From: Butyriboletus loyo | Lineage: Eukaryota > Basidiomycota > Agaricomycetes > Boletales > Boletaceae | Length of the DNA stretch: 64,000 nucleotides | Assembly (NCBI GenBank): GCA_038093515.1 | Contig: JBBPSI010000005.1 | Span: forward strand, 124,001 to 188,000 | Direction: 5' to 3' | Part shown: positions 3,091 to 8,641 of the stretch, in pieces | Layout of the letters: every line of letters begins with the position of its first letter | How positions within the stretch are numbered: the stretch's first letter is position 1 | Made by a program: the position numbers and the translations under genes | Notes under the pieces: model-generated | What the model saw: the letters and a program-made list of their open reading frames with translations, nothing else | Told to the model about the DNA's origin: nothing | Databases searched by the model: none

Positions 3091-5110
3091 TCACCGTCGC
3101 CTTGTCCGTGTTGTCTGGAATTTCGAGGTCTCCCTACGCAAACGTCTGTGGATAATCAAGTTCAGCAAACCGGGGAATGGCACTCATGTTTCGTGAAAAG
3201 GGGCAACCCACCTACTAGCCCTTTCCTTCTCAATCTCCCTCCTTTCCACTTCCTCTGCGCTCAGCACCTCAAATCGTGTTCTGAACTCCTCGGCCTCCGA
3301 CCATTCCCTCCACACACTCTTCAGAGTTTTCGGACCCCTCCCATCTTTCGGAGTTCGTCCCCATCCTCCAAGACCAAGACCCGTCTTGTCTTTCATCACC
3401 ATAACACCACTACCCATGGAACTGCCTGCCCCCGCTGCAGGCCCTTCTGTGGTGGAGGATGCTGGTTCGCGTTCTCCAGCTATGACACCCCATTCGATCG
3501 CATCTTTTTTATGTTTCATAAGCTCCTCGTGTACTGCATGCGCGATGAGTGGGACCGCTTCTCCAGATAGCCCGAGTTCAGCGCAGAGTTGTTGAGAAAA
3601 TGCTTCTGGTGTTAGGGGCGAGAGAAGATCCCACTCAATGTGGTCGAGTAGGTGGTAGGTGGCTACCTGTACGTCAATCTATGTGTGTGATGCACCAATG
3701 GGGCGTAGTCAGTGATCCTTACAGTGTGCATACGTTCAAGTAGGATCAAACGCAGTGGGAAGATGGAATAAAGCAAGGAAGATGGAAGGCATGACGACTC
3801 ACGCTAAGTATGACTCTGCACTCGGGAATCTCTTCGACACTCTCACCATCCCTATCCACGTGCTTGTGAATATGATCGTCCACACCCAGATCCAACGAAG
3901 CAACACCCTCGTGCTCTTCGAGCTGTGCCCTAATTTGATTAGCAACGGTCTCGGCCCAAGGAACGGTCGGTAAATCAAGGTCCATGCAAAAAATCCTTGC
4001 GAATGTTTCGGGTTTGATGAGTGTTTCGTAGAGGTTCCAGACGAAACAGTCTCGAATTCTATGCGTCTCGGTCTCGAACTCCACACGGATGGGAACGAGA
4101 GATGTGCGTTTCAGAGAATGGGTTCCGAGGGCGTCTGTAGATCTGTACATTCCATCATATGAACATCGATAATCAATGTGCCACAGAAATGGACGTTAGG
4201 GTATCATAGTTCCCATTGAAGAGAATATGCGGAAGAAGACTCACGGATATTCATGTGCAGTGGGACCAACAGGCTTAGGTTTAATAAATCGGGATGGGGG
4301 GATCATACCCAGATAGCTCTGTTCCAGCTCCGCCTTTTCTGTTTGCATTGATTTCACTTGCTGTTGTGATTGGAGTAGCAGTGGTGGAGGTTGAGGTGTC
4401 GATAGCCCGCTCCCAGAATGGAAGACTGACATTCCACTGCCCATGCGTGATCTGGACTGTCGTAGAGCTGTCCGAGTGCCTCCACTTGCGACGAAATCCG
4501 AGTCGTCCGAGTCGATGGCACCAGCGTCTGGGAACTCGTCCCCTGATCCCGGTTCGGTGTAGTTGACCATGCCTCCACGACGAGTGGATGTACGTGCAGT
4601 GGTAGAGGAAGCATTCAAGATAGGTTGCATTAGGAGAGATGCGCCTGTGCGGAGACGGGAAGGGTAGGTAGAATGCAACGCTTGGGTGGTTACCGGGAGG
4701 GGGTGCATGGGCGGGTTAGGTGGGGGCGGGGGCGGGATGGGAGCCGCTGGCGCTGGTGGTGGGGGTGGTGCCTGGTACGCCACGGGGATGTAAGCTGCTG
4801 GAACGGGTGTCACGGGCGCAGCCTTGGCAGCGCGATGGCGGGAACGCGTCGCGGTCTTGGGCGTCGTCGACGACGACCATGTGTGAACATTTTTGAGGTA
4901 GGCTGAAAGTGTGTCAGAACCGCCAGGACAGAGAGAGATGAACTGACCCTTGGATGAAGCAGCCTGCGCACCCGTTGCGACGTATGGCTGAAACTGGTTT
5001 GTTGCGGCATTGGACAACTGGGTGATTGTCTGCCTAAGTTGGGCGTCAGTGAGACTGGTCATGTTTGTCGTTGGGTACGACGTCGACGCTTGCAGTGGTG
5101 TGTCGGTCAT
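3091..5110 (-). CDS. SFH1: SNF5/SFH1 subunit of SWI/SNF- or RSC-type chromatin remodeller
   Basis: Complement of 3091..3145, 3212..3678, 3803..4142 and 4245..5110; 575 aa. Snf5/Sfh1/INI1 proteins scaffold ATP-dependent nucleosome remodellers in the nucleus. The N-terminal third is low complexity with a polyproline stretch. Next comes RRGGMVNYTEPGSGDE at about residue 175, typical of fungal Sfh1. The two SNF5 repeats follow: LVPIRVEFETETHRIRDCFVWNLYE with ETVANQIRAQLEE, then IDVQVATYHLLDHIEWDLLSP. The C-terminus is basic (SRRLRRETSKF, ending TRTRRR). All three introns join in phase. Exon 1 also contains a 45-nt GT-AG stretch, roughly 4904-4948, that could be removed in frame. The gene is head-to-head with the family-X polymerase gene at 126 bp. 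Assignment to RSC (Sfh1) rather than SWI/SNF (Snf5) rests on length and the RGG motif and is tentative. Confidence 0.93.
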
Positions 5111-5236
5111 CGTCCAGGGCAGCCTCGGGAGTGGGTTGAGCGAACGGTGTCTCTGTAGGGAAGGACGCGTATTGCGTAATCGTTCACCCCCGCATTCCCA
5201 TTCCCGACATAAACTTTGTTTTGCGTGACGGAGGTC
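5111..5236. promoter_or_regulatory. Shared 126-bp divergent promoter, SFH1 / family-X polymerase
   Basis: The two start codons are 126 bp apart on opposite strands, so both core promoters must lie here or overlap the first exons. No clear TATA box is seen. Confidence 0.5.
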
Positions 5237-7031
5237 ATGCTGTCGACACTTCTCAAGAAAAAAACGACGTCTCTTGCACGAGGGTGCTGGAGACGCTATT
5301 CGACCTCTCCAGGGCTAAATGAGGAGCTGATCCAAGTATTGTCACGATGTAAGTCTCGCCGCCAAACCTGGTTAGAACGCTAACGAGCGTTTTAGACATG
5401 GAAGAGGAGACAGCCTCCGCGTCCTCAAATTCTTACAAGGTGCGGGCTTACTCGAAAGCGATCAGCGCCATTGGTCAACTACCTGAGCAAGTTCGGTCAG
5501 TCGAGCAAGTCAGGCATGCAAGTTCATCTTTGTCTGCATGGTTTACCCTGGTCTCATGAGCTCATCCAGCTCGAAGGAGTTGGTGTACGTATCACGAAGC
5601 GCATAGATGCCTACCTCTCTGGAACTCCCTATGTCCGTGGGTGATCCACTTCTAGTTTCATTTCACGACTTCATATCATTACGGGCTCTAGGAACCACCC
5701 ATGCCATACAAGTCAAGGAAAGCTAAAAACTCGGATCACCCTCTGACGGAGCATACAAGGCCCAAACATCAAAAGACCCTTGACGAACTACGCAGAGAAC
5801 AGATAGTAAGGACATTGTCAAGTATCAGCGGTATAGGGTAGGGCAGACCTATTGCCATCCATTCACATATTTCATTCTTTTGTACACAGATTATCAAGGG
5901 CCAACGCGTTGTACGACGCAGGCTGTAGATCCTTTCAGGATATCGGAGAGCCCAAATTCCTTCAGATGCTAAGCCGTCCTCAGCAGATTAACGCACAGTA
6001 TATGATTGGCCTTGATCACCTTATGACTTATGAAGAAGCATCAACCGTCCGTGTACGTATCTCATGGTACTCGCTTTCCCCGTTGGTCCTCAATCTGTCC
6101 CTCCGCCTCGCGACAGGACTTTGTGGCACAGAATATTTCATCCAAATATACTGTTCTACTGAGCGGTGACTTGTGAGTCTCACATCCTTGTGCTCGGACG
6201 GGATTTTGACCTTGCTTCCAGCCGCCGCGGTACAGCCAGCGCTCAACACATCGCCCTTATCGTTCTTCATCCTCAAACTACCGGCATGTTTCCACCCGAA
6301 GGTTCTCCAAGCATCGACTCCACTATAAAACAAAGGTCGAAATACGACGTCATACCCTCTTCGTTCGCAAGTCACCCTGAGACCAAGGTCAAGTCCAAAG
6401 GCCTACCAGACACTGCCACGTTTTCCACAGAGATCATCTCGCCACTCGAGTGTCGAGGACTTCTTGCCACTACTATCACTGCTGGTGCCCAAAAGTGGGA
6501 TGGGATCATTAGAGTTCCGCAACGTACCGGGGCCAATACGGAAGGAAATGGGTGGGAGACGAGGACAGAGAGAATTCAAGGTGTGCGAGTGCGTGAAGGC
6601 CAATTTTTCAGCGCCAAGATATAGTGAGTTTAATCCACCAGTGCCTTGTCCGTGGCCGGGGACTTAGATGTGATGTTAGTTACGTCCCACGTCAGTGTGC
6701 AGGTGCAGCATCGATAGCGTTGACAGGCGACGTGCAATTCAATCTTGCCATACGAAAAGCCGCATCCCGACTTGGTCTTCGCATCAATGAATATGGGCTG
6801 TGGAGATGGCGCGGGGTGGCCACGACGACTTGCGTTGACGAAATAGGCAAACGAAGGAGTATCGAGCAGCACGGCGGATATTGGGAATTGGTCACCAGTG
6901 AGAGGGAGGAGGATATTTTTGAGGCAATTGGGATGGAGTGGGTGACGCCGGAAAGGAGAAATTTTGCGAATCTGGACGTTCGGTCGAGGAGACGGAAGAC
7001 AGAGGAGGAACACTCTTGCTCCAGCTCATGA
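5237..7031 (+). CDS. Family-X DNA polymerase homologue, probably inactive, with mitochondrial-type N-terminus
   Basis: Exons 5237..5348, 5396..5508, 5570..5632, 5692..5837, 5890..6052, 6117..6172, 6222..6623 and 6680..7031; 468 aa. The first 23 residues (MLSTLLKKKTTSLARGCWRR) are basic and lack acidic residues, as in mitochondrial presequences. The 8-kDa domain follows, with a helix-hairpin-helix (LEGVGVRITKRIDAYL), then the second hairpin (SGIGLSRANALYDAGC) and the palm start LSGDFRRG. The C-terminus is typical: LTGDVQFN, LRINEYGLWRW, EEDIFEAIGMEWVTPERR. The metal-binding DxD after FRRG is absent (GTASAQHIALIVLHP), and the usual lyase lysine position reads Arg with Lys beside it. The third catalytic Asp is also missing in the only splice form that stays open. 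A structural or regulatory role, or a decaying gene, are both possible. It converges on QNG1 with a 53-bp gap. Confidence 0.85.
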
Positions 7032-7084: not shown

Positions 7085-8641
7085 CTAGTACCATATGCTC
7101 CTTGTCCTGTGGGCAGGGAGGATTTCCACGCTCGTGATCCCCTCTATTCTATCTTTCCCAGTCTCGATTCTCTTGGCCAAGTCCCAGATATAAAAATCAA
7201 TCAACACACTGTGGACCTCTTCACACGGTCTCCTCCCAACGGTGCCTCTCAGCGTCGCAATCTCGTCCCTCATTCGCTCGATACTCAGGATGCTTGCTGC
7301 TCTCAAGCTGATCTCCTCGTCCGATCCCGGGGGGATGTCGTCGCCATTCCTCAGCTTTTCCTGCAGCGACGGGGGGTACACAAGGACGCCAAGATGATGC
7401 AGGATCTGGGGGACACGGTAGTCGGCGAACATCGTGAGGGTGTCTATGCAAGGACCGGGACCGTGCGGGAAGAGGGGATGCGGTGCGGAGGCGTCGGGGG
7501 GGAAGAAGGCGGCCCAAGTTTCCGCGACAAGAATCTGGGCGCGCTTCCAGAAGAAGACTACGCGCGAGCGGGATGAGGGAGAAGACGGGGAAGAGTGGCT
7601 GTGGACACGTACCCCGATGACCGCCGAGGGACCGCTCGTCCCTAAAAGAAGGAAATGTGTCGGCGACGGTCTGGACAAGGTCGAGTGCGGTTCCCCGGCC
7701 ACGTCGGGATGTCTGGAAGGCATTCAAGAAACCCGCGTACGATCCGCCAAAGTTCTGTTCAAATCCGTCACTCGGACGGCGATCGATCACGGACCCGACG
7801 AATGACGTACTTTGTAGAGGATCGAGCCGACCTCCCTCATGATCGCAATCCGTTCTTTGAGCAACGGCACTTGCTCTTTTGACACCGCCGCTGCACGGAA
7901 GACGTGCGCGATGAGCGCGTCGGGACAGAGCACCTCGGACCCGTAAAACGCCGGATCGGTGATCGGAATGTTTTCTTCCAGAGCTGCACGTGGCCAAGTC
8001 AGTACCACGTGTCCACAGAGCAACCAACGTCTGCTACCCACCCCGATTCAGGGCAGCGACGAGACTCCAGTATCCCGTATGAATAGCACCCGTCTCCGTG
8101 TCCCAGCCCCTTCGCCACTCCACCCCGTACCGCTCCGAACTGGCCCCCATCTCCGACCAGAAGCTAAAGTTGAGCGAGGAGATGAGGAAGATCCAGTTGA
8201 GACACTCTTTTGTGAGCGGGTCCGACGCAGAGTACGGCTCCGGAGGACATATGTGCAGAGGATGGGTCCGCCATGTCCGTGGTGTGTACGACTCCACCAA
8301 CATCCTGAAGGAAATCTTGTGGTGTGCGTTCCGCCCTCAGTACCTCGACTAGATCAGCATTGAAAGGTAGAGACATACATATTCAGCAGCCCTCTTTACC
8401 CCATCCTCGCTGATGTGTACAATGTTCGTTTCCTAGTTCGACGTCCAGAACAACCTTGCAAAATAGCAGAATGGCGACTTACGGCAAGCGCATATTCACA
8501 GCTGGGGACGACCGGGTTGATGATCCTCGCCGCGGGTGGCCGTTGTACTGGCTCTATCGTCTCTCGATTGTAAAACGCACCCTCGCGCGCCAATAGGTCG
8601 AGAGGGTTTTCGACGGACAACATTGTGGGTCTGAATGACAC
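7085..8641 (-). CDS. QNG1: Queuosine 5'-phosphate N-glycosylase / queuosine salvage protein (DUF2419)
   Basis: Complement of 7085..7557, 7613..7754, 7811..7983, 8042..8315, 8379..8432 and 8483..8641; 424 aa. The family releases queuine from queuosine nucleotide so that eukaryotes can re-use it for tRNA anticodon modification. Family landmarks in order: INPVVPSCEYAL near the N-terminus, HISEDGVKRAAEY, WIFLISSLNFSFWSE, YGVEWRRGWD, TGYWSLVAALNRALEE, FGGSYAGFLNAF, FPSFRDE, VFFWKRAQILVAETWA, LTMFADYRVPQ, and the terminal HRTRSIWY. Length fits the eukaryotic family. An alternative start is the Met at 8623. The acceptor of exon 3 (...cacaag) is weaker than the others but is the one that keeps phase and the conserved run into TPRTWRTHPLH. 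Confidence 0.92.

Follow-up and report, generated by a model that had tools for sequence, protein, structure and literature searches.

Does the maintenance of mitochondrial DNA (mtDNA) in mushrooms depend on a family-X polymerase (PolX) that can not copy DNA? This question is raised by a gene at positions 5237-7031 (plus strand) of a 64,000-nucleotide stretch of the Butyriboletus loyo genome (contig JBBPSI010000005.1, positions 124,001 to 188,000, referred to here as the window), the product of which is related to Pol beta and has lost all three catalytic aspartates. Comparison with its relatives suggests that it is a catalytically dead and probably mitochondrial family-X protein, most likely a non-catalytic binder of DNA gaps, nicks or 5'-phosphate ends. 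That it is a pseudo-polymerase with a preserved fold, as a preliminary description had proposed from the DNA letters alone, is well supported by the clade-wide loss of catalytic residues, the predicted fold of an orthologue and the constraint that persists in the protein. Polymerases that persist after catalysis has been lost can reveal other roles of the fold.

The eight exons join in frame via seven GT-AG introns of 47-64 bp each, and the 468-amino acid product has no internal stops. The exons are as follows, with residue equivalences given relative to Pol beta.

Exon 1, 5237..5348, plus strand: putative mitochondrial presequence with the cleavage-like motif R-R-Y|S-T; the lyase (8-kDa) domain begins.
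Exon 2, 5396..5508, plus strand: 8-kDa domain; K52 corresponds to K35 and Y56 to Y39.
Exon 3, 5570..5632, plus strand: first helix-hairpin-helix GVG; R82 corresponds to K68 and R86 to K72.
Exon 4, 5692..5837, plus strand: linker, then the beginning of the second helix-hairpin-helix.
Exon 5, 5890..6052, plus strand: second helix-hairpin-helix/Pol lambda-type fingers.
Exon 6, 6117..6172, plus strand: palm begins; the exon ends within SGDF.
Exon 7, 6222..6623, plus strand: palm, RRG..AQHIALIV; H227 and A229 at D190 and D192; K350 at D256, near the 3' end of the exon.
Exon 8, 6680..7031, plus strand: end of the palm, and thumb (LTGDVQFN, NEYGLWRW, PERRNF).

By homology and fold this is a family-X protein, with the 8-kDa helix-hairpin-helix domain, Pol lambda-type fingers, palm and thumb in order. 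The lyase-type helix-hairpin-helix domain, fingers and thumb match Pfam above the cut-off (the PF10391 match covers residues 137-182, across exons 4-5), the palm falls just under it (24.1 bits against a cut-off of 25), and Pfam recognises no second catalytic domain. The top PDB matches in phmmer searches are Pol beta chains. The fold predicted for an orthologue agrees with that of Pol beta over its full length, with Pol beta again giving the best PDB structure matches. Two other palm matches in the same genome are separate PolX genes with an intact DxD and third Asp; the window gene is thus the third, separate PolX locus of its genome.

The catalytic triad of Pol beta consists of D190, D192 and D256 (PMC11914125). 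Alignment by phmmer to Pol beta in the PDB places H227 at D190, A229 at D192 and R86 at K72, with a gap-free stretch covering the first two triad positions (GTASAQHIALIV / GAESSGDMDVLL). The last aligned stretch begins at Y352, equivalent to residue 258, placing K350 two residues earlier, at D256. The multiple alignment agrees on these columns, where the row for a spider Pol beta has D, D and D, and K in the K72 column. No D-x-D is found in the aligned palm stretch of the window protein. Since the three metal-binding carboxylates of an active family-X enzyme are gone, we strongly infer that polymerase activity has been lost. The absence of the two palm aspartates had been noted in the preliminary description, to which the alignment adds the third. 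The same description took SGDFRRG to be conserved, which is not the case: Pol beta has G-S-F-R-R-G, so that S180, part of the dNTP (deoxynucleoside triphosphate)-pocket motif GSFRR (PMC9226535), is replaced by Asp (residue 217), and R183, the second Arg of the motif, is retained.

The loss is widespread among relatives. Three protein searches, each scoring the approximately 8000 candidates with most shared words, so that a missing taxon means nothing, gave 117 proteins, of which 116 were aligned with the window protein (row P0020 was excluded). The sample leans towards intact relatives because the third search used an intact query. The family comprises 96 rows, the window among them, which come from Agaricomycetes and unnamed kin. 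At least one triad residue is non-acidic in 49 of these (dead rows), 33 are D-D-D, 8 are all Asp/Glu with at least one Glu, and 6 are gapped at the triad. PolX rows outside the family are D-D-D in 21 of 21 cases, a soft control because they were retrieved by likeness to the intact query. We looked up the order of seven taxa (six in Boletales, and Plicaturopsis in Amylocorticiales) and presume that of all others. On this basis Boletales account for 32 named rows, with the window among them and unnamed metagenome rows not counted, and 29 of these have all triad columns filled: 27 carry at least one non-acidic residue, two (Leucogyrophana and Hygrophoropsis) are conservatively changed and none is D-D-D. 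A loss shared by orthologues across the clade, which the preliminary description had named as a test, is therefore what is seen, and an accident of this strain is ruled out.

The term core Boletales here covers Boletineae and Sclerodermatineae, with 20 rows of which one is unnamed. Orthologues of 13 further named genera of this group share the loss, which affects D192 in 20/20 rows, D190 in 17/20 and D256 in 18/19. The pattern in Suillus/Rhizopogon is a different one: Gly or Ser takes the place of D190, D256 remains, and so does D192, with the exception of one unnamed row. Intact orthologues are found in most Mycena and in Plicaturopsis, Hohenbuehelia, Athelia, Jaapia, Sanghuangporus and Serendipita, among others.

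Two phylogenetic trees were built. The quick tree (94 rows) leaves out P0031 and rows shorter than 300 amino acids, and one row, P0097, lacks a triad call; the careful tree (79 rows) omits 15 more rows, which are near-duplicates, fragments and some long-branched sequences such as Antrodiella P0092, also dead. In the careful tree, built without the trait columns, the dead rows form eight maximal clades, namely core Boletales, Suillus/Rhizopogon, a group of Amanita, Psilocybe, Phlegmacium, Coprinopsis and Cyathus, Marasmius/Paramarasmius, Lyophyllum, Russula, and two single Mycena species. Of 1000 bootstrap trees, 946 have eight dead clades, 18 have seven and 36 have nine. The quick tree also has eight, there with Antrodiella alongside Cyathus, and the undirected minimum number of changes is eight. 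As the dead rows fall in separate clades, catalysis appears to have been lost several times independently in mushrooms, with the caveats that support is weak for several deep branches, that some of the rows have long branches, and that the states of single species may reflect sequencing or annotation errors. Suillus/Rhizopogon and core Boletales are the safest independent pair, because their changes affect different residues and because triads are near-intact in Leucogyrophana and Hygrophoropsis, to which Suillus/Rhizopogon are most closely related. Within core Boletales, the tree places the loss of D192 before the Boletineae/Sclerodermatineae split. Individual dead rows include Psilocybe cubensis P0028, with the triad E-Q-K, and Amanita P0077, P0080 and P0082, Marasmius P0090 and Russula P0073.

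The core Boletales proteins have not been freed from constraint. When their 20 rows are fitted by themselves (361 shared columns), a gamma model (alpha 1.19) is better than equal rates by 198 log units, and the site rates correlate with the rates estimated for 29 intact orthologues (Spearman 0.55, p 1e-29). In intact rows the catalytic columns stand at about the 4th rate percentile; in core Boletales they are average, at the 59th to 68th. At the protein level, rate heterogeneity and rate correlation thus show purifying selection that continued after the active site was lost.

Mitochondrial import is probable from the N-terminus of the window protein, which is basic and acid-free with an R-R-Y|S-T that we take to be a presequence cleavage-like motif. 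This motif is present in 33/54 family rows, as opposed to 9.2 in shuffles, and intact orthologues also have presequence-like N-termini.

With its three metal-binding carboxylates gone, the protein in all likelihood no longer catalyses DNA synthesis. The lyase-domain pocket is largely retained, as are the thumb and the two helix-hairpin-helix motifs, and the protein most likely serves to bind gaps, nicks or 5'-phosphate ends of mtDNA without catalysis. A bound end would be held or shielded and then handed on for repair synthesis by another polymerase, for example an organellar family-A enzyme. Most DNA-end-binding residues are kept in core Boletales, and three residues are newly fixed in this dead clade: R82 (19/20), A89 (20/20) and Q75 (20/20). 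More tentatively, and with somewhat less than even confidence in the whole, we suggest that the family is a third PolX of mushrooms, a mitochondrial one, selected for a structural role in binding mtDNA gaps and ends; polymerisation would have been dispensable and lost about eight times independently, and boletes would have strengthened the end pocket (Gly to Arg at the K68 position, acidic to Ala at residue 89).

Several observations weigh against a mitochondrial, non-catalytic binder. Root-to-tip distance is 1.57 in core Boletales and 0.95 in intact rows, and being faster than their intact relatives the core Boletales are under weaker constraint; the thumb (0.75 versus 0.65) and fingers (1.10 versus 1.05) are slightly faster after the loss. 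R283, Arg in 29/29 intact rows, is lost in 6/18 core rows, and the K280 position has drifted. As for the 5'-phosphate residues, K60 is not retained, most rows have Tyr instead of H34, and K72 is replaced by Arg, in intact rows as well. The presequence motif is also rarer in dead rows (15/31) than in others (18/23). On balance, constraint in the dead core Boletales, as read from protein alignments only, is reduced but real.

The best surviving alternative, although we consider it unlikely, is a lyase-only repair enzyme that has lost polymerisation and still removes 5'-deoxyribose phosphate via K52, at the K35 position, or another Lys. The two activities are separable in Pol beta, where D256A abolishes synthesis and K35A/K68A/K72A abolishes lyase activity (PMC4106905). 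The 8-kDa domain is relatively slower, i.e. more constrained, after the loss, and the K35 position is Lys in every filled row of core Boletales (20/20), intact orthologues (26/26) and Suillus/Rhizopogon (13/13). The other 12 dead rows are less uniform, with Lys in 8 of the 11 filled, and conservation of K35 is explicable without lyase chemistry because this residue is also a phosphate ligand in Pol beta (PMC11914125). The Schiff-base Lys72 of Pol beta-type 5'-deoxyribose phosphate lyases is R86 in the window protein; the column is Arg in 84/84 filled family rows, intact ones included, compared with Lys in 16/20 filled non-family rows, and the preceding residue is Lys in just 21/84. The Arg reported in the preliminary description is therefore real, but being family-wide it is not part of the window gene's own loss, and the statement there that all active sites are lost holds for the polymerase triad and not for the lyase position, which is Arg in catalytically intact relatives as well.

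Slow decay is a little less probable still. In this scenario a gene of low benefit lost catalysis repeatedly, since another polymerase does the work, and is now disappearing, as would fit the approximately eight separate losses, the faster dead rows, the drifting pocket residues and the one family-A polymerase match in the same genome. The open frame was weighed by neutral simulation. For the terminal branch of the window alone, with about 0.10 changes per site, 39/600 runs stayed free of stops, so that constraint may, with some small probability, have been lost recently. For the longer bolete branch, with about 0.48 changes per site, approximately 12-14 stop mutations are expected and 0/600 runs (200 at each of three kappas) were stop-free, an argument tempered by the fact that database proteins are pre-selected for open frames. 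Decay also fits poorly with the intact frame and splice sites, the strong rate heterogeneity correlated with intact orthologues, and the new fixation of R82, A89 and Q75 in the dead clade. The early decay raised in the preliminary description is not supported, given the retained frame, splice sites and rate heterogeneity and a D192 loss that predates the Boletineae/Sclerodermatineae split.

A rebuilt active site, in which the new Asp at S180 and a Glu at D256 (present in most relatives) form another metal site for some nucleotidyl transfer, is improbable. The S180 column is Asp/Glu in 25/49 dead rows against 0/44 rows with an all-acidic triad, with Asp in 18/20 core rows; yet a phylogenetically independent test of the link had only four supported pairs and was not significant. 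The window protein has Lys at the third position and no D-x-D in the aligned stretch, and the catalytic columns vary (H, D, Y, C, R and T at position 190), unlike a working site. Finally, an annotation artefact hiding a true exon with DxD is very improbable, as the stretch aligns gap-free to Pol beta and to annotated orthologue proteins of other genomes, and the two other palm matches of this genome are separate PolX genes.

The gene lies between two minus-strand neighbours. The convergent 3' neighbour (7085-7723) matches the queuosine salvage family PF10343. The divergent 5' neighbour (4241-5113) is a proline-rich open frame with no Pfam match at E up to 0.01; it may share a promoter with the window gene, as its likely start is about 125 bp away from the start of the latter.

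The window protein shares with Pol beta its fold and domain order (8-kDa lyase/helix-hairpin-helix, fingers, palm and thumb), and differs in being fungal, in the replacement of the three catalytic Asp and Lys72, and in its putative mitochondrial presequence. Noncanonical prokaryotic PolX from Deinococcus and others likewise have substituted triads and keep the N-terminal domain, and two Deinococcus representatives have been shown to be inactive as polymerases (PMC9226535). These proteins retain a PHP 3'-5' exonuclease domain, whereas for the window protein Pfam gives no match to PHP even at E up to 1; as reported there, they form mostly one cluster plus several smaller groups, whereas the fungal losses recur within one orthologous eukaryotic family. 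Fungal Pol lambda/Pol mu, discussed for Coprinus cinereus and Aspergillus fumigatus, also belong to family X, but have a longer N-terminal extension, presumably with BRCT, and the window gene is a separate locus; A. fumigatus PolX1 has been shown to be active (PMC12828229). According to the same source, Pol beta and TdT are absent from multicellular fungi, which encode two PolX; the window gene adds a third in its genome. Within the limits of the literature searched, we found no paper on this third fungal family. A further comparison is with the intact Agaricomycetes orthologues, which belong to the same family (five D-D-D rows are 32-37% identical to the window protein) and have the same Arg at K72, but retain the D-D-D triad, with Ser at the S180 position in 27/29. 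Because this one orthologous family has intact, partly altered and fully dead members, and several apparently independent losses, a non-catalytic role is testable by comparison.
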